35,084 bases of DNA. Source: Verrucomicrobiota bacterium. GTDB lineage: Bacteria; Verrucomicrobiota; Verrucomicrobiia; Opitutales; UBA2995. Each line of letters starts with the position of its first letter. Within the stretch, counting starts at the first letter, position 1. The translations under genes were made by a program, and so were the position numbers. Under the pieces are notes generated by a model. That model did no database searches. It had not been told where the DNA came from and was given only the letters and a program-made list of their open reading frames with translations. Shown here in pieces: positions 15,092 through 26,493 of this stretch. The stretch is taken from NCBI GenBank assembly GCA_027622555.1, contig JAQBYJ010000059.1, forward strand, positions 1-35,084. The letters run 5' to 3'.

Positions 15092-15236
15092 GGGCGCGAC
15101 GGAGTCAATAGGCAATTGTCAAGTTTTCTGGCAACAATAGACCTTCTTCTCAGCGTTACCTATTGCACTTAACCTTTCTTGATCCGGATTGAGGTCCACC
15201 TGAAGTGGTGGACTTGACAATTGAGCATTGACCCTG
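15092..15236. repeat. 145-bp element, left copy
   Basis: This copy aligns without gaps to 26283-26427 in the same orientation, with scattered substitutions. Its ends are imperfect inverted repeats: the left has GTCAATAGGCAATTGTCAAG and the right has CTTGACAATTGAGCATTGAC. An internal hairpin GTCCACC/GGTGGAC lies at 15194-15213. It encodes no protein and looks like a MITE or REP-type non-autonomous element. Its right end abuts the truncated aldolase gene. Confidence 0.85.
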
Positions 15237-15243
15237 CCGAGGT

Positions 15244-15438
15244 CTACAACGCCGCGTAGGTCTGGCACATCCAGCTAAGTTGGGCGCGGTCGAGCGCTAT
15301 GTGCTCGGTGTCGATGAAGACGAAGTCCAACCCGCAGCCTCTCACCACCTCTGGCCAGCGCGGTGAAGGCGAGACGATCAGCGTGCCGAAAACGGTTTTT
15401 CCATCGCGAAGATCTTTTGACAGGTCGGCAGGCGTCAT
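15244..15438 (-). pseudogene. HpcH/HpaI aldolase family protein, truncated N-terminal fragment
   Basis: The 64 residues match the N-terminus of 2-keto-3-deoxy-acid aldolases (HpcH/HpaI family): GKTVFGTLIV, the (beta/alpha)8 strand GLDFVFIDTEH, and WMCQTYAAL. The family is normally about 250 residues. The frame ends at a stop in the junction with the 145-bp element, so three quarters of the gene is missing, including most metal and substrate ligands. The ATG overlaps the stop of the upstream BNR protein by 4 bp (ATGA), so it was the last-preserved gene of the sulfatase/sialidase operon. An intact version could have cleaved a 2-keto-3-deoxy sugar acid. Confidence 0.8.
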
Positions 15439-16625
15439 GGCTTGAGCGTGAGTTTTCCAAACTGAATGTGCGTGCGTGCCGTGTTGGCCGTGCCGCTATC
15501 CCAGACGCAACGGAACTCTCCCGGCGCCACCTCGACGAGCGTGGGGTAGGAATTCTTGATCCCGGCGTCGTAGAAGGTTTTCTCCACGCTCCAGTTGCTG
15601 CCGGGCGCTTTGGTCTTATAGCGCAGGGACGTCCGTCCCCCGTTGGGAAAACCCGGCCAGCTCAAGTCGCGCTGGGCCGGACCGTCGCTGTAGACGTAGA
15701 TGTGGGTGCCATCCGTGGCGCGGTCGAAGAAGCCCTTGGATTTGGCATTGTGCAGATCCGGCTCCTCCCGGGCAACGCTCCAGCTGTGCCCCCCATCCCT
15801 ACTGACACTTGAATAAGCGCGCGGCGGGTCGGTCGTTTTATTGGTATCATCGTAATCGGCCGTGCGCATGACGATTTTCAGTTCCCCCGGATGATCACCA
15901 GGGGCGATGTTACCCTCGTGTAGAAAAACCCGGGGACTTTCGGGTTGGGGTATAAAGGCTTCGAGCTCCCACTCCAACAAACTGCTGCTGCCCAGGATAA
16001 AGTGGTCACGGCTGCCGCGGGGATCGGAGGCCAGGGTATTCCTGTGGGCGGGGAGCAGGTAACGCGGCCGATTTTTTATCTCGCTCTCAACGATCGTCGC
16101 GTTGGTGATCAAAGGCCCCGTATAATGCATGGCCAGCTCCACGGGGGTCCAAGAGCGTCCGCCGTCCGCAGTGAAGGCGGCCACCAGGTAGGATTCCTCA
16201 CTGTTCTCCTGCTTGATGGAACAGCGCATGGCAAAGCACCAGACAATGTCCTGGTCTTCCGGTTTGAAGAGCACCGGGTTGGCATAGGCGAACTGAATGT
16301 CTCCCTGCCATTTATTGTGATCGAAGACAACAACCGGCTCCTCCCAGCTGTCCCCGTCGTTGCGGGAAACCGTGGCGAAAATATCCCCCATGTCCTTTTT
16401 CCCATGAGTCATCGCTCCGAAAGCCGTGATCAAGTGGTTCTTTTTCCACTGCGTAATTACCGGTTGCCAGACTCTCCATGAATCCGGGTGCTGATCCACC
16501 TGTCTAATGACGCGCACATCGGTCACGTCCCCTTGGTACGATGCTGACTGAGCAGGCTCTGCCGACAGGACAAAACAAATGCCAGTCACAGCAAACGTCC
16601 GAATAAATTGAAGAAGATTTTTCAT
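15435..16625 (-). CDS. Exported BNR-repeat (sialidase-fold) protein
   Basis: A 396-residue protein with a signal peptide (hydrophobic residues 10-22, cleavage near AQSAS). Asp-box/BNR motifs mark a six-bladed sialidase-type propeller: SRNDGDSW (87-94), TADGGRSW near 150 and SRDGGHSW near 270. An Arg-Ile-Pro motif and the catalytic Tyr are less clear than in the sialidase at 19739, so it could be a different BNR hydrolase. Its start lies 30 bp after the preceding sulfatase stop, and its stop overlaps the aldolase fragment start. A periplasmic or extracellular role in releasing terminal acidic sugars is plausible. Confidence 0.8.
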   Translation of the reverse strand: MKNLLQFIRTFAVTGICFVLSAEPAQSASYQGDVTDVRVIRQVDQHPDSWRVWQPVITQWKKNHLITAFGAMTHGKKDMGDIFATVSRNDGDSWEEPVVVFDHNKWQGDIQFAYANPVLFKPEDQDIVWCFAMRCSIKQENSEESYLVAAFTADGGRSWTPVELAMHYTGPLITNATIVESEIKNRPRYLLPAHRNTLASDPRGSRDHFILGSSSLLEWELEAFIPQPESPRVFLHEGNIAPGDHPGELKIVMRTADYDDTNKTTDPPRAYSSVSRDGGHSWSVAREEPDLHNAKSKGFFDRATDGTHIYVYSDGPAQRDLSWPGFPNGGRTSLRYKTKAPGSNWSVEKTFYDAGIKNSYPTLVEVAPGEFRCVWDSGTANTARTHIQFGKLTLKP

Positions 16626-16655
16626 AGGTTAATTCTGTTTGGGGTTTAACAATTT

Positions 16656-18116
16656 CTAGGGCTTGGATTTTCCGCTCGAGGGCGGCATATCCTTATTCGG
16701 CAAGCTTGCGGCCAGTTCAGCTTTTATTTGTCTAAACTCTTCCCTGCCGGCGAGATTGTTCCATTCGTTGGGATCGCTCTGATGGTCGTAGAGTTCTTCG
16801 CCACCGTCCGCATAGCGGATGTAACGCCAACGCTCCGTCCGCAAGGCATGGTTTCCTTGACCGTGGGTAGTTAAAGCAGGCCGATCCCATTTGCGTTGAG
16901 GATCTTGAAGCAATGGTAACAGACTGGTCCCATCCAATTCGGCAACCGGCGGTAGACCGCATAGTTCAATCAGCGTGGGAAACAGGTCTATGGTACCTAC
17001 GGGTCGACTTGAGCGAGTTGCCGGATTCGTCACGCCCGGCGCGGCGATAATCATCGGAATCCGCGTAGAACGTTCCCAAAGGGTAAATTTATGCAGGTGT
17101 TCTTTCTCACCGAAATGCCAGCCATGATCGGACCAGAATACGATGATCGTATTGTCGGCCACCGGGCTGGCTTTAAGCGCGTCCAGCAGGCGCCCCAGCA
17201 GGGCGTCAAAGTAGGTAATGTTTGCCAGGTAGGCCTGCAACACCTCGCGATACTTGCCAGCGTCCCTGACAAGCTCGAGATCTCCACGCCGTTCAGCGGC
17301 CATGCGCTGGCCGCCTTCCGGTATGTCATCCAAATCATCGTCCTTTATGGGTGGCGCTTTAATTTGATCCAGCGGATACATTTCAAAATACTTGCGCGGC
17401 GCGTACCACGGCAGATGAGGACGGTAATTGCCCGCCGCAAGGAAGAAGGGCTCACTGGGAGGTTCCTGAAGGAACCTGACCGCCCACTCGACCATCTGGC
17501 CATCACCCATTTCACTGTCTTTCACGTCAAAAGGTCCCCAGTCAAATTCGCGGGGATTCACCGGAGGCTTGGTCAGTGCTTTGACCGATGGAAGCTGGTT
17601 CAGGGGAAACCCTTCCGGCCAGCTGAAGTTTTTAACATCAAGACCGCGCGCCAGTTGATCCTGGTAATGACTGTCAAAGACCTGGTCGAAATACTCGTGC
17701 CAGTCGCTGCGACGGTTGAATCCTGGCGTGTGGTGAAGTACTTTTCCTCCTCCCGCCACATAGTAACCATTCGCTTTGAAATGCTGCGGAATCGACGTTA
17801 CACCGGGCATTGCTTCGTGCCAGATCACGTTGTTGGCATAGATGCCTGTGCTGCCCGGAGATCTGCCGGTGATCATAGCTACCCGTGATGGATTACAAAC
17901 CGGCGCGGCGACATGGGCATTGGTAAACAGCAATCCACGTTCGGCCAGACGATCAAGATTCGGTGTGATAACTCCCGGATAACCCCCAAGACAACCGACC
18001 CAGTCGTTCAGGTCGTCCGCAATAATCATCAGGACATTCGGTTTTGTCGAGTTGGCCGCCAACCCAGGCATAGACAGAGCGAGCAACAGCGCCAGGATTG
18101 TGAAGCGTTTTTTCAT
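16656..18116 (-). CDS. Exported formylglycine sulfatase (C-N-P-S-R type)
   Basis: A 486-residue S1-family sulfatase with a signal peptide (1-20, ending GLAA). The N-terminal metal ligands are in IIADDLND (Asp34/Asp35). The maturation motif CNPSR has Cys74 as the residue converted to formylglycine; a second metal-binding segment FWSDHGWHFGEKEHLHK lies near residue 330. The pattern GKVLHHTPGFN and YRPHLPWYAPRKYF resembles iduronate-2-sulfatase-like enzymes. It would hydrolyse sulfate esters on glycans. The start overlaps the stop of the upstream sulfatase by 4 bp (ATGA). No formylglycine-generating enzyme gene is in the window. Confidence 0.9.
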   Translation of the reverse strand: MKKRFTILALLLALSMPGLAANSTKPNVLMIIADDLNDWVGCLGGYPGVITPNLDRLAERGLLFTNAHVAAPVCNPSRVAMITGRSPGSTGIYANNVIWHEAMPGVTSIPQHFKANGYYVAGGGKVLHHTPGFNRRSDWHEYFDQVFDSHYQDQLARGLDVKNFSWPEGFPLNQLPSVKALTKPPVNPREFDWGPFDVKDSEMGDGQMVEWAVRFLQEPPSEPFFLAAGNYRPHLPWYAPRKYFEMYPLDQIKAPPIKDDDLDDIPEGGQRMAAERRGDLELVRDAGKYREVLQAYLANITYFDALLGRLLDALKASPVADNTIIVFWSDHGWHFGEKEHLHKFTLWERSTRIPMIIAAPGVTNPATRSSRPVGTIDLFPTLIELCGLPPVAELDGTSLLPLLQDPQRKWDRPALTTHGQGNHALRTERWRYIRYADGGEELYDHQSDPNEWNNLAGREEFRQIKAELAASLPNKDMPPSSGKSKP

Positions 18117-19681
18117 TGTGACTGATTCTTGGTCTTCTTGCTTTTGGCGGATGTATTGGATTGAGGCGCCTTTTCCGGCCCGGAAGATGGTTTCTTACCG
18201 AAAAAGTAATCCGGGTAGTCCCAACCATGGTCTTTACCCTCCGCTTTTGACTGCAGACCGTAGACTTCCGCTTTCAGGAGTTGCAAGTTGACTGGATCCA
18301 GGAGCGGATCGTTCGTCTGCCGACGCCAGGAAAGCAGGCTTTGTTTGAGCTCGTTAAATGCCGCCGCAAGTCTGGAATCGTCGACAAGATTGCGAAATTC
18401 ATAAGGATCGGCCTGCAGGTCGTAGAGTTCGAATCTGGGCGGTTTTTTCATCAACGCGTAGGCGGAGCGAACCTCGGGCGCGGCGTTGGCGACGCTTCGC
18501 GCCAGGCCTCCATCGAAACCCGCCTGGCCGCGCTCAACGGCGTCTGCCTCGAGCTTGCGGAAGGTGTCGGCGTAACCGGGATTCTCTTCACTCGAAAGCA
18601 GATTCTCAATGAGTTTGTACCGGCCGTTACGCACGGCACGCTGCGGGTAGAAGTTGGCCTTGGCCGCATGCGTGTGAAACTCGGTGAACAAATGTTTTCT
18701 CCAAGGGACCGGTTCCCCGGTAATCAACGGAAGCAAGGATGCCCCGGGGAGATCCGGAAGAGTCCGGGCCTTGGCCGCGGAGAGCAGTGTCGGCACCAAA
18801 TCGATGGTGGAAACCAGTTCATTGCACACCTGCGGTTTCGCCACGCCCGGCCAACGGACGATTAGCGGAATACGAACGCCGCCTTCGTAACAGGTGCGTT
18901 TGCCGCGCAGCATGTCCGCGCCGTGGTCGCCAAGGTAAACGACGAGGGTGTTGTCCGCCTTGCCGGAGTTTCGCAAGGCCTTGAGTAAATCCCCCACGAG
19001 GGTGTCGAGGCGACTGATCGAGTTGTAGTAATCGGCAATCATTTCACGCATCTCCGGCGGGTCTATTCCGAAATATGGCATGGCCTTCACGTCGCCGCCG
19101 TTTTGTGGATCCTTTGGCAACCCGTCCACCTGGCGCAGCCATGGATCATGTGCATCGGGATAATTGACATGCAGGAAAAAGGGTTGGGTACCGGCTTGCA
19201 TGAAAGCTTCCGCGAAACGGGCGTAATCCCCCAGGTTTTTTCGCGCGAAGTTCCCGGAGGGAATTTCCTTCATGTCGTAGGGAAAAGCCGATTCGGGATT
19301 GATATGCAGTTTGCCAATGAGTCCGGTCCGGTAGCCAGCTTCCTTTAGGCTGCGTGGAAGATTCGGCGTGTCCTCCCGATAGAGCCGGAACCCCCAAGTC
19401 GCGAGACCGATTTGCCCATGTTGGTGCGGATACAATCCAGTTAAAAAACTCGCGCGCGACTGACTGCAACCCGCTTGCGTCACATAAGCGTTATGAAAAA
19501 GAACGCCCTCCCCGGCCAGCTTATCCAGGACTGGTGTCCGCGCATAAGGATCGCCGTAACACCCAAGTTCGGGACCATTATCTTCCGAGACGATAAGCAA
19601 GATGTTCGGCTGGGCCGCCTGCACGGAAATCAACAACGCAAGCAGTAGTCCGGATAGTGAAAGCAGGCAGGTTTTTTTCAT
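18113..19681 (-). CDS. Exported sulfatase, sulfamidase/heparan N-sulfatase-like, with CSQSR motif
   Basis: About 522 residues from ATG 19681 (an in-frame TTG lies two codons upstream). A signal peptide is followed by the metal site VSEDNGPE and by GCSQSRASFLTGLYPHQHG, with the presumed formylglycine Cys at 72. The sequence around it resembles N-sulfoglucosamine sulfohydrolase-like (S1_8-type) enzymes. The usual Pro of C-x-P-x-R is Gln here. LGDHGADM supplies the distal metal ligands. The C-terminus ends in a Lys/Ser/Gln-rich low-complexity tail (KSKKTKNQSQ). A heparan-like or other N- or O-sulfated amino sugar is a possible substrate. It is co-transcribed with its neighbours. Confidence 0.88.
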   Translation of the reverse strand: MKKTCLLSLSGLLLALLISVQAAQPNILLIVSEDNGPELGCYGDPYARTPVLDKLAGEGVLFHNAYVTQAGCSQSRASFLTGLYPHQHGQIGLATWGFRLYREDTPNLPRSLKEAGYRTGLIGKLHINPESAFPYDMKEIPSGNFARKNLGDYARFAEAFMQAGTQPFFLHVNYPDAHDPWLRQVDGLPKDPQNGGDVKAMPYFGIDPPEMREMIADYYNSISRLDTLVGDLLKALRNSGKADNTLVVYLGDHGADMLRGKRTCYEGGVRIPLIVRWPGVAKPQVCNELVSTIDLVPTLLSAAKARTLPDLPGASLLPLITGEPVPWRKHLFTEFHTHAAKANFYPQRAVRNGRYKLIENLLSSEENPGYADTFRKLEADAVERGQAGFDGGLARSVANAAPEVRSAYALMKKPPRFELYDLQADPYEFRNLVDDSRLAAAFNELKQSLLSWRRQTNDPLLDPVNLQLLKAEVYGLQSKAEGKDHGWDYPDYFFGKKPSSGPEKAPQSNTSAKSKKTKNQSQ

Positions 19682-19738
19682 ATTCAATGGTAATCGTTGG
19701 GAAGTTGTTTAACAGGGCCGGTACACGATCTGACGAGG

Positions 19739-20938
19739 CTATCGGACGATCCATTCCAGATTGAAGCGGGCAAGGGTGAGATTGGCATAAGCCCAGTCAC
19801 GTTTACGAATCACAACCGGTTTATCAGTGCCGCTTTCGTAGAAACAAAGAACCGTTCCGTCGGGGAGGACAGCCAGGTCGCTGTAACCGCTGGGCCCCGA
19901 CTGGAGGATCTTTTTCATGGGCCAGGTCATACCGCCATCGCGGCTGAGTTTTATGGTCACATCGCGGCGGGCCGAATGTGCACGCGCGGTGGTATGGGGA
20001 TTGGAAAACAGAACCAGTGGACCTGAAAGGGTGGAATTTCCCGGATGTGCTATTATTCCAGCCATACAACCTGGTTCGAGCAAGTCTTCGGCAAACGCAG
20101 GCTTCGACCACCCGCCTGCTCCATCAGGACTATAGCTTACCAGACGGCGATCCCGCGGGTTGGTATTGCGGGCGGTTATGAGGGCCCGGCCATCGGCCAG
20201 TGGGACTATGTTGGGCTCCCCCGCCCCGGGAATGGCGATTTCGCCGCGTTGCCATGTTTCCCCGGCATCGTCGCTAAAGATAACGCCTACCGCTTTGCGT
20301 AATGAAGCCTCGGAATCGTAGGTAGCCATCCAGAAAGGCACACAGAGTCGTCCATTCTCCATTTCCATGGCATGTCCGGGGCCGGTGGCGATGACTTGCC
20401 AATCCAGTTCGCTTCGAAATTCCTCAAACACGGAAGTAATCTCAATGGGCTTTGTCCAATGAATGCCATCATCGTCACTGCGCAGGTAAAAGCAGCGCAT
20501 ATATTCCACGCAGTAAAGCAAGTGCACCACGCCTTCGCGCGTGGCGATGGCCACCGGATTATTGACGGTTTGTTCGTCGGGGCCACCCATGTCTTTTGCT
20601 TTCTTCTCATCAGACATGTGCGGGTTTCGCGCCAGTCGAGGTCCCAGGTGGGCAACTTGTTTGGCCGGGGAAAATGTGCGGCCTCCATCCGTGCTGCGTC
20701 GAAGGTGAATTTCTATCTCTCCACGGTCGGCGCCACTGAATTTTCGCGCTTCGCAGTAGACCAGCACACTGCCTTTGGCAGTAACCACGATGCCTGGAAT
20801 ACGGTAGGACGTGAAGTCGTTGGTCAATTCCTCAAAGAGCACCGTCTTTGCCAGGAAGGGCTCCGCCGCTTGCGATACTGAAGGGAAGGCAATGCTTCCC
20901 CAAAGAAAACTCAAAATGAAGATGCTCCTGATTGTCAT
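19739..20938 (-). CDS. Exported sialidase (GH33-like exo-alpha-sialidase)
   Basis: A 399-residue propeller enzyme with a signal peptide (1-24). It has the diagnostic Arg-Ile-Pro motif (YRIP, 45-48) and four Asp boxes: STDGGRTF (82-89), SDDDGIHW (154-161), SDDAGETW (222-229) and SRDGGMTW (332-339). A Glu in GEPN (241) and Tyr352 in SGYSDL fit the Glu/Tyr nucleophile pair of GH33. It should release terminal sialic acid or another nonulosonic acid from glycans. Its ATG overlaps the stop of the upstream sulfatase by 4 bp, a sign of translational coupling and of a joint desulfation/desialylation role. Confidence 0.88.
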   Translation of the reverse strand: MTIRSIFILSFLWGSIAFPSVSQAAEPFLAKTVLFEELTNDFTSYRIPGIVVTAKGSVLVYCEARKFSGADRGEIEIHLRRSTDGGRTFSPAKQVAHLGPRLARNPHMSDEKKAKDMGGPDEQTVNNPVAIATREGVVHLLYCVEYMRCFYLRSDDDGIHWTKPIEITSVFEEFRSELDWQVIATGPGHAMEMENGRLCVPFWMATYDSEASLRKAVGVIFSDDAGETWQRGEIAIPGAGEPNIVPLADGRALITARNTNPRDRRLVSYSPDGAGGWSKPAFAEDLLEPGCMAGIIAHPGNSTLSGPLVLFSNPHTTARAHSARRDVTIKLSRDGGMTWPMKKILQSGPSGYSDLAVLPDGTVLCFYESGTDKPVVIRKRDWAYANLTLARFNLEWIVR

Positions 20939-22428
20939 GGTTTACTCAAAGATTTCTTGCCCGAGACATTTAAGGTAACGGGCCGGGTTCTGGCGCGAAG
21001 TTGGACATCCATTTTTTTGCTCATGGTGTTTTGCAGCACTGCAAAGCCGGGATTGTCCGCCAGATTTTCGCGCTCGATGAGAAAATTCGACAACCGTTGG
21101 GTACTGACAGAAGAAGTATAATCGTAAAGCTCCTCAGACAAAATGTTGCGCGATTTCCAATCAATCCAACGCGTGTAGCGATGGTCGGAGTTGCGAATTG
21201 AATAGCCCATGATTTCGGGATTGCCGCCCTTGAAAGGGCGGGAGAACTGGCTGAGTACCAGGTCGTGGCCTGGGGCGGTGGGATGCTCAAGAATAGGCAC
21301 GAGGCTTCGGCCATCGAGATCCGCAGGTGGGCTGAGCATTGCGAGTTCGGCAAGCGTAGGGTAGATGTCGACGTATTCGGTTAAGGAATCGGTGGTGGCA
21401 CCCGGCTGTGGCATTCCGGGTACGCGTATCATAAGAGGAACATGCGTATCCAGTTCGAAGTTGGTGTCCTTGCACCAATGATCCGCTTCACCCAGCGAGT
21501 AACCATGATCACCGAAAAGAACAACAATGGTATTTTCTTCGAGACCTAGTTGTTTTAACGCATCAAGCAGTTTCCCCACCTGTGCGTCCGTGTAGCTGAC
21601 ACAGGCATAATAGCCGTGGCGCAGGTCACGGGCTTGCTCAACTGAAACACGCTCGTCTGACGGGACTCCTTCGTACCCGCCGAGCTCCAGATGGTCAGGG
21701 TAAGCTACCTCGGGAGCGCCCCGTGTTCGGGTGGTATTCCCCTGCAATACGAATTCAGACGGATCATACAGATCCCAATATTTTCTGGGGGCATTGAAAG
21801 GCAAGTGCGGCTTGAAAAAGCCGACGGCCAGGAAAAAAGGCTCCGGCTTCCGGCTGAGAGTTTTCAGGGTTTGGATGGCAAGGTTCGCGAGTTGACCATC
21901 CGGGTATCCATCGTCTGGCACTTCAGCCTTTTCAAATGGTACTCCCTTCCCTTCACGGTGGTTGTTTTCAGGTAGCGCGTAGTTCTTCCAACCCTCAAGC
22001 CGTAACACGTGTGGCACCGACCACGATAACGGGTCTTCTTCTTTCTCATTACCACTGAATACTTTGCCCAATCCCTGAGCATGGTATCCATTATTTTTGA
22101 AAAGCTGCGGCAGAGTTACAAGCTCCGGCAGAGTTTTTCGAAACAAATTTCGATTGTGCCAAACACCTGTATTGTCCGGGAGCTTTCCAGTCAGGATGGA
22201 AGCACGCGACGGACCGCACACCGACTGTTGGCAGTAGGCACGATTAAACAAGCGCGCCGTTGCCGCTAAACTGTCGATATTCGGTGATTTGACCACCGGA
22301 TCGCCATAACAACCTAAAGAAGTTCGTAAATCGTCAACCGCGATAAAGAGCACGTTGGGCTTCTCCAAGGCAGCCTGCGCACTCCCTTGAAGAAGCAGAT
22401 ACAGTAGGGCTAAAAAAAGGATTTTCAT
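20935..22428 (-). CDS. Exported sulfatase, iduronate-2-sulfatase-like
   Basis: A 497-residue S1 sulfatase and the first gene of the - strand operon. A signal peptide (1-20) precedes the metal site AVDDLRTSLGCYGD and the motif YCQQSVCGPSR, with Cys71 as the formylglycine precursor. GLGKVFSG, FFKPHLPFNAPRKYWDLYD and LFGDHGYSLGEADHW are characteristic of the iduronate-2-sulfatase-like subfamily (S1_7-type). It would remove sulfate from uronic acid or hexose units of acidic polysaccharides. No clear Shine-Dalgarno precedes ATG 22428. A palindromic candidate operator lies about 85 bp upstream. Confidence 0.9.
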   Translation of the reverse strand: MKILFLALLYLLLQGSAQAALEKPNVLFIAVDDLRTSLGCYGDPVVKSPNIDSLAATARLFNRAYCQQSVCGPSRASILTGKLPDNTGVWHNRNLFRKTLPELVTLPQLFKNNGYHAQGLGKVFSGNEKEEDPLSWSVPHVLRLEGWKNYALPENNHREGKGVPFEKAEVPDDGYPDGQLANLAIQTLKTLSRKPEPFFLAVGFFKPHLPFNAPRKYWDLYDPSEFVLQGNTTRTRGAPEVAYPDHLELGGYEGVPSDERVSVEQARDLRHGYYACVSYTDAQVGKLLDALKQLGLEENTIVVLFGDHGYSLGEADHWCKDTNFELDTHVPLMIRVPGMPQPGATTDSLTEYVDIYPTLAELAMLSPPADLDGRSLVPILEHPTAPGHDLVLSQFSRPFKGGNPEIMGYSIRNSDHRYTRWIDWKSRNILSEELYDYTSSVSTQRLSNFLIERENLADNPGFAVLQNTMSKKMDVQLRARTRPVTLNVSGKKSLSKP

Positions 22429-22723: not shown

Positions 22724-24220
22724 TCAGGCCACAAGCGGCGTGGGCAGAGCCATTCCGGGTTTTGAAAGAACATGCAGGTAAATCTGCGTGGTTTCGATAC
22801 TGCGGTGTCCCAGAAGATCCTGCACGCTGCGGATATCCGTTCCCCGTTCCAGTAGGTGGGTGGCGAAACAGTGGCGCAAAGTATGCGAGGTCACCCGTTT
22901 TGCCAACCCGGCCCGCCTCGCCGCTTGCTTGATATGTTTCTGGTAAATGCCCGGATGGAAGTGATGGCGTCGGATTACTCCGCTACGGGGATCCGTACTT
23001 TCGTTCTGTCCCGGCCACAACCAGAACCATTCCCATGCTTCCGCCGACTTGGAAAATTTTCGCTGCAATCCACTACTGGGCATCTCTACTCCGGGAAGCC
23101 CGCGACGGCGGTCTTCCTCATGCAGGGTCCTGGCATAACGCAATTGGGTTTCCAGTTCACCAGCCAAAGGTTCGGGAAGGCCCACCAACCGGTCCTTGTT
23201 TCCCTTGCCGGCCCGCACCACAATTTGACGCCGGGCAAAATCCACATCCTTCACCCGCAATCGCATCAGTTCGCTCAATCGAAGGCCGGTCCCGTACTGA
23301 AGACGCGCCATCAGCCGGTAACGTGCGGGAAGTGCATCGAACAGCCGTTGTAATTCCTCCCGACTGAGCACCACCGGAATCGATCGCCGAATACGACCGC
23401 GCATGAAGGAGGAAAAATCTCCGAGTTCAAGCTTCATGACTTCTCTTAAGAAAAAGACACAGGCATTGAGCGCCTGCTTTTGCGTGGAAGCGCTTACACC
23501 CTCCCTTACCGCCAGGTGGGTCAAGTAAGATTGAAGCGATTCCTGAGACGGATTGCCGTCGCCGCAAACCTTGCAAAACCGCAAAAACCGTTTCAACCAA
23601 CCCAGGTAGCTGCGCTCGGTGGCCAGACTCATGTGACGCACCCTCATAAGCTCGCGGGCCTTGTTCAGATTCGCATCCGCATCTTTCGAGTCAGGCAAGG
23701 TTTCATGAACGCGTTTGGCGGATTTTTCACCGTTCTCCGCTGTTTGAAAACTGGGCCTGATCACCCTGAATTCATGGGGCTCGTCCGGTTTTTCTTTACG
23801 GTCCTGAATCCTGCTTTCCTTTCTATCAGCCTCTCCTTGCAGCCTGGGTGAGGTTTGGGGAGACATGGGTACCATTTGCACGCCGCCACCAAATCGGGCC
23901 AGCGTTTGACCACCCTTGTTTTGGTGAACCGGTACCCGTTCCGGGGCGTTCACAAAAAACCACCGCAACGCCTGACGCCAGCGTTCCGCCATCCAATCCT
24001 CTGGACTTCTCTCCCGTATCAACTCGGCCACAAACTCTCTGGCATTTTGGCAGGTTGCTTTCTCGCCTCGCCGCTTCAGCCACCCCAAATACCACCTGAT
24101 TGTAATCGTGTGAGACTGAATCTTACTGCAATGAAACCCGCTGTTTCGCAGCACGGTTTCCCAATGGGTGAAGAGAATTGTTTTCATGGAACGTATAGTG
24201 AACATAAAATCACTATGCAT
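22724..24220 (-). CDS. intI: Integron integrase (IntI-family tyrosine recombinase), N-terminally extended
   Basis: This 498-residue protein's last ~310 residues align closely with IntI integrases. The core-binding domain (about 198-262) has TERSYLGWLKRF and SASTQKQALNACVFFLRE. The catalytic residues are Arg314 (GTGLRLSE), His446/Arg449 (SHTLRH), His472 (LLGH) and Tyr481 (QIYLHV). The IntI-specific insert is at about 375-415 and is followed by DPRSGVIRRHH. Standard IntI is ~320-340 residues; here ~190 extra N-terminal residues include a second SAM-like core-binding segment (39-92, with IRWYLGWLKR) and a charged linker (100-185). The start may be 24220 or the ATG at 24187 (MKTILF). It inserts and excises cassettes at attI, which by normal geometry lies just beyond its 5' end. 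Confidence 0.93.
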   Translation of the reverse strand: MHSDFMFTIRSMKTILFTHWETVLRNSGFHCSKIQSHTITIRWYLGWLKRRGEKATCQNAREFVAELIRERSPEDWMAERWRQALRWFFVNAPERVPVHQNKGGQTLARFGGGVQMVPMSPQTSPRLQGEADRKESRIQDRKEKPDEPHEFRVIRPSFQTAENGEKSAKRVHETLPDSKDADANLNKARELMRVRHMSLATERSYLGWLKRFLRFCKVCGDGNPSQESLQSYLTHLAVREGVSASTQKQALNACVFFLREVMKLELGDFSSFMRGRIRRSIPVVLSREELQRLFDALPARYRLMARLQYGTGLRLSELMRLRVKDVDFARRQIVVRAGKGNKDRLVGLPEPLAGELETQLRYARTLHEEDRRRGLPGVEMPSSGLQRKFSKSAEAWEWFWLWPGQNESTDPRSGVIRRHHFHPGIYQKHIKQAARRAGLAKRVTSHTLRHCFATHLLERGTDIRSVQDLLGHRSIETTQIYLHVLSKPGMALPTPLVA

Positions 24221-24252: not shown

Positions 24253-24433
24253 GGGGGTATTTTTTGCCGGGATTTTCTGACAAAGTACTCTTAAGACTAA
24301 CTGGCGCGCGCGAGGGAGATCAGAAAACCCTTGACGTTCAGTGATTTGGAGTTGATCGTTTCGCCGTGAAAAATACCCCCCAACCCCCTCCGGATATCAG
24401 CCGGTTTTTGTTATCTCAATAGTACTGTTCGAG
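24253..24433. other. Putative attI region
   Basis: This is the non-coding stretch between the integrase 5' end and the first cassette. It ends at R' box GTTCGAG (24427-24433), the first recombination point. It contains a 12-bp perfect inverted repeat GGGGGTATTTTT (24253-24264) / AAAAATACCCCC (24369-24380), an inner pair TTTTCTGA/TCAGAAAA (24273-24280, 24320-24327), and AGTACT twice (24284-24289, 24421-24426). No protein is evident. The exact attI limits are inferred. Confidence 0.6.
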
Positions 24434-25023: not shown

Positions 25024-25290
25024 ATGGTTTATGATTGGGATCCAGAAAAAGAAGAATGGCTCAACGAAAACCGAAATCTGAGTTTCCTGCACGTTCTTTA
25101 CCACCTTGATCGGGGTGATCTCCTAGACGTAAGGGAGCACGCCAACAAGGAAAAGTATCCGCACCAAAAAGTGCTTATTGTCAATATGAATGATTATGTG
25201 TATGCAGTTCCATTCGTTGAGGATGACGAGACTTGGTTTTTGAAAACGATTATTCCCAGTAGAAAAGAAACGAAGAAGTATTTGAAATGA
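25024..25290 (+). CDS. BrnT-like type II toxin (cassette 2)
   Basis: An 88-residue protein beginning MVYDWDPEKEEWLNENR, the WDP-x-K start typical of BrnT/DUF497 ribonuclease toxins. It is followed by a helix-strand pattern and a C-terminal region VYAVPFVEDDETWFLKTIIPSRKETKKYL, recognisable in this toxin group. The gene order (toxin before antitoxin) and the 4-bp overlap with the next gene are the brnT-brnA arrangement. It presumably cleaves RNA when unbound. The palindrome at 24997-25013 probably controls it. It lies in cassette 2, which is bounded by matching R boxes. Confidence 0.75.
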   Translation: MVYDWDPEKEEWLNENRNLSFLHVLYHLDRGDLLDVREHANKEKYPHQKVLIVNMNDYVYAVPFVEDDETWFLKTIIPSRKETKKYLK

Positions 25291-25559
25291 AGGCATTAAA
25301 ATTAGACCAGGAAGAGAAAGAATTACTCGAAGAATTAGAAAGAGATGAATGGGTATCCACTCTCGCATCTCCCAAGGATTTCAAGCAGTTTCAAGAGGCT
25401 GCCAAGAACACTTTAAAGAAAGACAAAAGAGTGAACATTCGCATCAGCGAACGAGATCTTTCTTCGATCCAGAAAATAGCACTTGAAGAAGGTATACCGT
25501 ATCAGACTTTGATATCGAGCGTGCTCCATAAATACGTAAACAAAAAGATCAAAGTATAA
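25287..25559 (+). CDS. BrnA/CopG-like antitoxin (cassette 2)
   Basis: A 90-residue protein with an acidic N-terminal helix (LDQEEKELLEELERDEW) likely to wrap the toxin. The C-terminal ribbon-helix-helix (RVNIRISERDLSSIQKIALE then GIPYQTLISSVLHKYV) is a well-known ending of BrnA/CopG-type antitoxins and would bind DNA. Its start overlaps the toxin stop by 4 bp (ATGA). Its own TAA stop falls inside the R'' box GTATAAC of the attC site, so the cassette is packed with no wasted sequence. Confidence 0.8.
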   Translation: MKALKLDQEEKELLEELERDEWVSTLASPKDFKQFQEAAKNTLKKDKRVNIRISERDLSSIQKIALEEGIPYQTLISSVLHKYVNKKIKV

Positions 25560-25641: not shown

Positions 25642-26331
25642 GTGACCTACTGGCTTGATCTATTTACCGGCGTAACGTGGAATGAATTCCGCAATGCCGG
25701 CAGCAACGTAACTGGCTTCCGAGAAACACGCTGGAAGACGATCCAGCGAATCAAGGAAGGCGACATCTTTTTGTGTTACCTGACTGGTGTTTCCCGATTT
25801 GTCGGTCTGCTCGAAGTCACAGGGAAGCCATTTCAGGACGATACTCCGATCTGGAAGGATGTGGTTTTTCCATGTCGCCTGCAGGTCAACCCCCTACTGG
25901 AACTCGATCCAGAGTATGGAGTTTCAGTCCATGACCTGCGGGACCGCCTTTCATGCTTCCTCAAGTCTGAGGCGTCCAATGCTTGGACTGGTGCATTTCG
26001 AGGATCGCCAGCGAAGTGGTCGCAGTCAGATGGGGATGCAGTTGTTGAAGTTCTCCAACACGCCAAGGCCCATCCCAAGAAGCTCCCAACCGATCCGAAG
26101 AAGCTGGCCCAGAAGCCACGAGCGTTTATTGGCAAGGACAAAAAGCCTGTCACGATCCCCGATGATGATGAACTGCCACTGACGACCAAGGCAGGCACGA
26201 CCGATTCTGCTCCCACCGAGCACACCGAGATTCAGGCTTTACTCCTTCGGCTAGGAGCCGACATGGGTTTTGATGTTTGGGTGGGCGCGACGGGGTCAAT
26301 GGGCAATTGTCAAGTTTTCTGGCAACAATAG
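25642..26331 (+). pseudogene. EVE-domain protein, C-terminal nuclease-like part cut off (cassette 3)
   Basis: From GTG 25642, residues 1-150 form an EVE (PUA-like, modified-base-binding) domain: TYWLDLFTGVTW, GDIFLCYLTGVSRFVGLLEV, and PIWKDVVFPCRLQV. A Lys/Pro-rich linker leads into HTEIQALLLRLGADMGFDVWV (residues 194-214), which resembles the start of a restriction-like or DUF-type nuclease domain in intact homologues. At 26283 the 145-bp element begins and the reading frame ends 16 codons later. The intact protein was probably a modification-dependent restriction or defence factor. It lies 20 bp inside cassette 3, whose terminal R'' box (expected GTCGAAC) has been lost. Confidence 0.75.
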
Positions 26332-26427
26332 ACCTTCTTCTCAGCGTTACCTATTGCGCTTACCCTTTCTTGGTCCGGGTTGCGGTCCACCTTTAGTGGT
26401 CGACTTGACAATTGAGCATTGACCCTG
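26283..26427. repeat. 145-bp element, right copy
   Basis: Same length and orientation as 15092-15236, with the terminal imperfect inverted repeats GGGTCAATGGGCAATTGTC (left) and GACAATTGAGCATTGACCC (right). The sequences are diverged from the left copy, including in the internal hairpin, so the duplication is not very recent. It truncates the EVE-domain gene and runs directly into tandem repeats. Confidence 0.85.
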
Positions 26428-26493
26428 TCTTCTTTCTGATTGAGCATTGACCCTGTCTTCTTTCTGTCTTCTTTGTGACCCTGTCTTCTTTGA
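26411..26493. repeat. Tandem repeats at right edge of island
   Basis: A 28-bp unit (ATTGAGCATTGACCCTGTCT, then TCTTTCTG) occurs at 26411-26438 and 26439-26466, followed by degenerate GACCCTGTCTTCTTTG copies to about 26493. The first unit overlaps the end of the 145-bp element. It is related in inverted orientation to the left-edge repeat at 14898-14963. Confidence 0.8.

Follow-up and report, generated by a model that had tools for sequence, protein, structure and literature searches.

A gene predicted to encode an integron integrase (IntI) with a second core-binding-like domain in front of the regular one was found in the window, the whole stretch of 35,084 nucleotides of Verrucomicrobiota DNA that was analysed. 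The longest open reading frame (ORF), at 22724–24220 on the reverse strand, encodes an intact-looking integron integrase of 498 amino acids (aa). According to sequence profiles and structural models, the protein almost certainly consists of an N-terminal domain resembling a core-binding (CB) domain (the N-domain), a flexible linker, the CB domain and the catalytic (CAT) domain. As a whole, the protein may represent a functional-looking integron integrase subtype with two clamp-like domains, in which the N-domain would act as an accessory DNA-contact module; this complete reading is given slightly less than an even chance. The ORF, its strand, its 498-aa length and the two peptides quoted in a preliminary description of this DNA (IRWYLGWLKR and RSYLGWLKR) were all present. 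The gene is arranged as follows.

22724..24187, reverse strand: integron integrase gene with the added N-terminal domain, from the probable start at Met12 of the longest ORF; the ORF itself extends to 24220.
23921..24187, reverse strand: predicted N-terminal second core-binding-like (SAM-like) domain, ORF residues 12–100 (HMM match to 17–100, hhalign, four helices in AlphaFold2, Foldseek and VIA).
23669..23920, reverse strand: linker, residues 101–184, predicted to be disordered (pLDDT < 50; linkers of relatives).
23438..23668, reverse strand: regular CB domain, residues 185–261 (PF13495 at 185–267, family E 5e-23; helices in the full-length model).
22727..23437, reverse strand: catalytic domain with R314, K339/K342, H446, R449, H472 and Y481 (PF00589 at 285–485; invariant columns).
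22961..23107, reverse strand: IntI-specific insert region, approximately residues 372–420 (alignment to IntI4 2a3v, interrupted by a one-residue gap).

The C-terminal portion had been described as approximately 310 residues of canonical IntI, and this was borne out. The integron integrase profile TIGR02249 matched residues 185–496 with 373.1 bits, passing its curated cut-off of 265, and the best solved relative, IntI4 (PDB 2a3v), could be aligned over residues 187–496, including the insert stretch. Since the two matches begin at residues 185 and 187, approximately 184 residues are extra, close to the N-terminal extension of ~190 residues claimed earlier. Residues ~372–420 are taken to be the IntI-specific insert or additional domain (I2 helix region), and this stretch aligned with 2a3v with a single one-residue gap, as expected of the IntI-specific domain. 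R314, K339/K342, H446, R449, H472 and Y481 were invariant in an alignment of 23 sequences. These residues, which presumably hold the catalytic roles, make up the R-K-H-R-H-Y set, and because they are invariant the enzyme looks catalytically intact from its sequence. Structural comparison of the full-length AlphaFold2 model with 2a3v gave a match at E 2.8e-25 with 38% identity in the structural alignment. The protein is like IntI (TIGR02249; IntI4 2a3v) in its CB and catalytic domains, its catalytic residues and its IntI insert, and unlike IntI4 it carries a second CB-like domain and a linker in front of its CB domain. Integron integrases have been placed among the simple tyrosine recombinases, which hold CB and CAT domains only (Smyshlyaev et al. 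2021, PMC8138268, in the portions available); the additional N-domain sets the present protein outside that definition.

Profile comparisons and structural models supported the homology of the N-domain to the regular CB domain, with a predicted CB-like fold. A profile of 108 N-domains aligned with the canonical IntI CB domain over 81 columns with an hhalign probability of 97.1 (E 4.8e-11, score 54.0). Among the controls, 50 column shuffles reached scores of 14.8 at most with a best E of 0.022, and four windows of the catalytic domain scored 8.4–9.2. The N-domain HMM, which places the domain at ORF residues ~17–100, also matched the CB domain in most of the listed frames. When eight N-terminal fragments were compared with PF13495, the N-domains of two passed the cut-off (L076, 5.1e-8; L054, 1.8e-7), the fragments of L002, L012 and L102 gave no match, and the match of L119 fell at the start of its regular CB domain. 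PF13495 was also matched at E ≤1 by six of the ten close N-domains (best 2.9e-4), and the window's own N-domain remained below the gathering score (13.8 and 15.9 of 27 bits, E 0.078). A PDB sequence search with the N-domain profile A3 returned one unrelated match (E 0.64), and a viral scan with the same profile gave 55 pattern matches, of which none was confirmed.

The second domain had first been suspected from the echo of IRWYLGWLKR in RSYLGWLKR, and as evidence this echo failed, as the profile alignment paired YLGWLKR of the N-domain with FLRFCKV in the CB domain, so that the two copies of the motif are offset by 7 residues. The window's N-domain and its own CB domain shared 8 identities in 80 aligned columns, and a phmmer comparison of the window's core with its own N-terminus produced a 12-residue match alone (E ~20). 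On the profile alignment, the peptide echo is an accidental clue to a right conclusion. With regard to origin, the N-domain profile scored 54.0 against the IntI CB domain, 50.2 against CB domains of other named tyrosine recombinases and 32.6 against the Xer-like CB domain of the phylum; on these profiles, the scores do not separate internal duplication from capture.

The fold of the N-domain was predicted with AlphaFold2 from an input of six N-domains (that of the window and five distant ones) with zero CB rows. The model of the N-domain alone revealed four helices (2–15, 20–40, 46–60 and 64–80) and no strand of at least three residues, with block pLDDT values of 74–93 over the first 80 residues. 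The full-length model (pTM 0.63) contained the same N-domain helices and CB helices at 167–183, 188–208, 215–227 and 233–250 (numbering from Met12). In the Foldseek search with the N-domain, the first four rows were IntI4 2a3v (three chains) and the archaeal Xer 4a8e with probability 1.00 and E 0.11–0.27, and no row reached E 0.001 or better, the best being 0.11. VIA-align returned Z 11.5 against 4a8e and 11.3 against residues 1–90 of 2a3v_C, both of which fall below the value of ~13 under which, by the tool's own caution, scores may be common among helical bundles. All of the top 26 rows in Foldseek and the top 25 in VIA were tyrosine recombinases or integrase domains; Fur (Z 6.0) was the first protein in the VIA ranking that is clearly unrelated. 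The assignment of a CB fold gains its weight because the sequence profiles and the fold search name the same domain. The four predicted helices, with IntI4 2a3v as the first Foldseek row, do not refute a CB-like fold at the N-terminus; the proposed second core-binding-like domain stood in its fold (by profile, fold search and conservation in the phylum), whereas its proposed extent of residues 39–92 had to give way to ~17–100.

The distribution of the N-domain was evaluated in the host phylum, where TIGR02249 matches were present in 114 of 387 genomes surveyed. A set of 150 integrase frames was drawn from among the matches listed, leaving out matches with in-frame stops and some incomplete ones; it includes near-identical copies (e.g. 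three of G040) and four frames whose start lies within the core (L009, L011, L093 and L099). These frames were bimodal in their length before the core, 114 of the 150 having at least 75 residues there. In a held-out test over 47 clusters (40% identity), HMMs built from the remaining clusters recognised the N-domain at E < 1e-3 in 108 of the 114 long frames, the same frames that were retained for coverage in the N-domain alignment, and in the window's protein at E 2.2e-18. The doubled architecture, present in 108 of the 150 frames examined, is common among IntI of the host phylum and not a one-off.

These counts bear on the possibility of a start-site artefact, in which a chance upstream frame would precede a protein that starts near residue 185. 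Six of the 114 long frames had no N-domain match (L050, L051, L072, L104, L151 and L176) and may be such cases. For the other 108, a chance upstream open frame was ruled out by the HMM matches, obtained with similar clusters held out; with the E-value of the window's own match and dN/dS values well under 1 in relatives also standing against it, such an artefact is extremely improbable. A translation start near residue 190, which would have undone the proposal, is likewise disfavoured by the conservation of the N-domain and by dN/dS, the latter measured in relatives and not in the window's own gene. The start common to relatives corresponds to Met12 at 24187 (MKTILFTHW; MKRIVFKNW and MKIVRFPRW in relatives), where translation probably starts. 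By eye, no ribosome-binding site was evident at the later starts GTG153 and TTG175, nor at Met12, and because all of them are alike in this respect the comparison favours none; it is the conservation of the N-domain that supports the long start.

In a search of 53 relatives, G009 gave the best foreign match (58% identity over residues 160–498) together with a separate upstream match to residues 4–102 (E 5.6e-26), and G028 and G046 showed the same two-match arrangement at lower identity. The genome of the window itself holds a second integrase with an N-domain (a 421-aa frame). Fragments of intI were also observed elsewhere in this genome on contigs C35, C99 and C106, those of C99 and C106 at contig ends, and C35 also carries a short frame matching residues 8–67. 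A 16S gene was not found in this genome. The 18-mer target of a Verrucomicrobia probe, present in 7 of 52 genomes of the order including one of the window's genus, was absent from it and from the single-contig genomes G001, G011 and G040; by these markers alone, the assignment to Verrucomicrobiota would be a mere leaning. In genome G040, three near-identical intI genes with an N-domain (L039, L040 and L044) share the same chromosome, and several matches to a 342-aa recombinase lie nearby. Five IntI frames without an N-domain (L052, L055, L057, L066 and L075) extend 59–115 residues beyond the end of the core profile.

For named genomes and viral contigs, the 80 loci most similar to the window protein were used instead of a random draw, and a frame was counted if its core score was at least 280 and its core started within it. 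The N-domain was present in 5 of the 40 frames of named genomes so chosen, with strong matches in Desulfonema, a Desulfobacteraceae metagenome-assembled genome (MAG) and a Nitrospiria MAG (E 4e-11 to 7e-14) and weak ones in a gammaproteobacterial MAG and Fibrobacter (~1e-4). It was found in none of the 78 frames on IMG/VR contigs chosen in the same way. The 80 best IMG/VR loci by likeness to the window protein (L278–L357) yielded 79 integron-integrase-like frames, and some of these loci may be integron arrays filed as viral.

On a tree of 214 rows (FastTree only, with every third viral locus number and with L099_1886 and L223_89 left out), the presence of the N-domain required 12 changes, 9 of them forced by starred branches, compared to 71.5 in shuffles; judged from this tree, the trait is clustered but gained or lost several times. 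The nearest N-domain neighbour was among the five nearest by catalytic domain in 90 of 108 cases, and N-domain and catalytic-domain similarity were correlated (Spearman 0.33; 200 permutations gave 0.09 at most). The N-domain has been co-inherited with the core in the long term. Median identity was 16% for the N-domain, 36% for the CB domain and 48% for the CAT domain, so the N-domain diverges faster. Its dN/dS was 0.04–0.15, close to that of the CB domain, in the 11 informative of 19 pairs of relatives; among the others, four were saturated in dS, one had no synonymous change and three G040 pairs were too close (0.22–0.69). The N-domain is under purifying selection in these relatives, the window's own gene being without a close enough relative.

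The linker agreed with the ~85 residues given in the preliminary description, and 81 of them (84–164 of the model, numbering from Met12) had pLDDT < 50. Linkers of relatives have a high content of P, G, S, A, E and D and vary fast, with a length of 0–143 residues (median 39) across N-domain integrases and a dN/dS of ~0.2–1.3 in informative pairs of relatives with estimable dS. A flexible tether, together with the likeness of the N-domain to the neighbouring CB domain, would also suit an autoinhibitory or regulatory role, in which the N-domain would act as a brake and shield the clamp until its release. Linker lengths from 0 to 143 residues suit a fixed intramolecular lock poorly, and a brake of this kind is considered distinctly unlikely.

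The integron context of these genes was examined by scanning for attC sites. Upstream of N-domain intI, attC-like hairpins with matching R boxes could be observed in 8 of 19 longer stretches of 1.6–12 kb (L259, L260, L261, L262, L266, L268, L274 and L275), with up to 7 sites in one array; single weak matches in L263, L269 and L272 were left out of this count. Genome G183, with loci L123 and L259, shows 7 attC-like sites beside its integrase. In L259, the cassette ORFs are directed away from intI, as usual. Seven further loci were scanned alongside: L044 had attC-like sites upstream of intI, L042 had one weak match, and none was found in L038–L041 and L046. Short flanks showed an attC-like site at only 3 of the 78 N-domain loci and at 3 of the 28 that lack the domain, and at none in either group after shuffling. 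As attC-like arrays lie upstream of N-domain intI, at least some of these enzymes belong, on sequence grounds, to ordinary integrons, and since the attC sites adjoining these relatives are ordinary-looking, the N-domain alone does not imply another attC class.

Near the window's own gene, a strict scan of the window found no attC, with one doubtful match at 24–81, far from the gene. The attC model R1 found nothing in seven sources or in the window's genome, the genome search being without a positive control. On these results, this copy may lack a live array. Three features lie upstream of the gene or beyond.

24253..24380, no strand assigned: 12-bp perfect inverted repeat GGGGGTATTTTT / AAAAATACCCCC with 104 nt between its arms, upstream of intI where the attI/promoter region is expected.
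25024..25559, forward strand: BrnT-like/CopG-like toxin-antitoxin pair in cassette position (BrnT_toxin under its cut-off, CopG_antitoxin over).
25642..26331, forward strand: EVE-domain-like protein (PF01878, E 1.5e-4, 22.2 bits, just under the cut-off of 23).

The BrnT/CopG-like pair and the EVE-like protein without attC would fit a lost or decayed array, but do not demonstrate one. Repeats were counted upstream of 96 intI genes with the N-domain and 28 without it. Inverted repeats of at least 12 occurred in 13 and 4 of these regions, respectively (simple shuffles 2/480 and 0/140), and direct repeats of at least 12 in 15 and 8 (shuffles 1/480 and 1/140). Repeats are above the shuffled level in front of both kinds of intI, so these counts show no association with the N-domain, and no attI repeat pattern separated the two kinds in these regions. 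Beyond the EVE-like gene, a 27-nt inverted repeat (89%) and a 28-nt tandem repeat occur at 26289–26491; the segment ATTGAGCATTGACCCTG of this repeat recurs at ~15230–15260 and looks like a dispersed short element. Beside the integrase, at 15435–22428, lies a sulfatase-like gene cluster (one by Pfam, two by eye) with two BNR-repeat proteins and a GC content higher than most of the window.

A functionless relict fusion would accord with the lack of any attC found near the window's gene and with the intI fragments elsewhere in its genome. In addition, a 2008 survey treated longer integrases among pseudogenes, though thought possibly functional (PMC2426708, in the portions available). Against this stand the purifying selection on the N-domain in relatives and its long-term co-inheritance, and a relict is considered very unlikely.

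The preliminary description had suggested that a duplicated SAM-like domain could alter the recognition of attC hairpins or the assembly of multimers. For the role of the N-domain, contact with DNA is proposed as the likeliest function, a little short of an even chance. A second clamp-like unit on a tether would most simply offer a second contact, either with DNA or with a neighbouring protomer. The N-domain may be an accessory nucleic-acid-contact module which, on its flexible tether, would contact DNA beside the crossover site, i.e. the outer attI or the DNA held by a neighbouring protomer of the synapse, and this second contact could raise affinity or order the synapse. In its mode of action the module would resemble the arm-binding domain of phage integrases, except that a second CB-like domain would supply the structure. 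In IntI, helices one to four make up one side of the DNA clamp (PMC7790495, in the portions available). The net charge of the N-domain (median +2.9 per 85 aa, compared to +3.0 for the CB domain; +6 in the window) appears compatible with DNA contact; a quarter of N-domains without net positive charge are counted against it. The most conserved IntI CB positions (R-x-R-H-Y-S-x-R-T-E and S-T-Q-N-Q), certain of which touch DNA, are not retained in the N-domain, a point that likewise counts against such contact. Its own commonest pattern is DWQxxQAxxA, part of which is retained in the window (DWMAERWRQA), and because of this replacement a distinct contact would be expected rather than a second core-site clamp.

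The same replacement of the CB signatures by a different pattern would favour an N-domain that keeps the CB fold but serves protein–protein contacts (oligomer or partner binding), as would the tryptophans W8, W31, W64, W69 and W75 (counted from Lys13), which are invariant among the 10 N-domains closest to that of the window. The median charge of the N-domain, being like that of the CB domain, speaks against such a role, which is regarded as possible but rather unlikely.

Compared with other recombinases, the reading of the N-domain as a DNA-contact module has a functional parallel of probably different build. The window's N-domain was modelled as all-helical and CB-like and would thereby differ from arm-binding domains, which generally have another fold. 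The parallel lies in the layout of the phage and ICE arm-binding tyrosine recombinases, in which an extra N-terminal domain likewise precedes the CB and catalytic domains (PMC8138268, in part). TnpR of Tn4401, with an N-terminal DUF3701, is similarly a simple tyrosine recombinase with a helical N-terminal domain of unassigned function (PMC8138268, in part); unlike in TnpR, DUF3701 was absent among the Pfam matches listed for the N-domain integrases.

Nemergut et al. (2008, PMC2426708, in the portions available) reported a deltaproteobacterial group, 'clade 15', whose IntI share a gene fusion that makes them ~120 aa longer on average. The present case is like clade 15 in that a longer IntI is common to a group of relatives, and loci L210 and L212, from Desulfonema and Desulfobacteraceae, have the N-domain in the present survey. 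In the portions of that paper available, the identity of the extra residues and the end at which they lie are not stated, and the likeness of clade 15 to the present proteins is one of length. The open-access literature as far as available (including PMC9668308, PMC9176274, PMC7790495, PMC3108266 and PMC3414803) yielded no account of IntI with a second CB-like domain, subscription papers lying mostly outside it. Within these sources, the length anomaly of IntI is already known (PMC2426708), and the CB-like nature of the added domain is new.

Descriptions of IntI give it a single DNA clamp and a single catalytic domain, and the way it recognises single-strand hairpins has been accounted for on the basis of that anatomy. 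A phylum with a second clamp-like domain in most of its examined integrases offers a natural experiment on the discrimination of attI from attC and on the building of the synapse. It is conceivable, though more doubtful than probable, that IntI of the host phylum and a few others independently reached the arm-binding principle through a second, diverged and tethered CB domain gripping a second element of attI or attC. If true, these integrases would be bivalent, and the one-clamp textbook IntI would be just one of two widespread designs.
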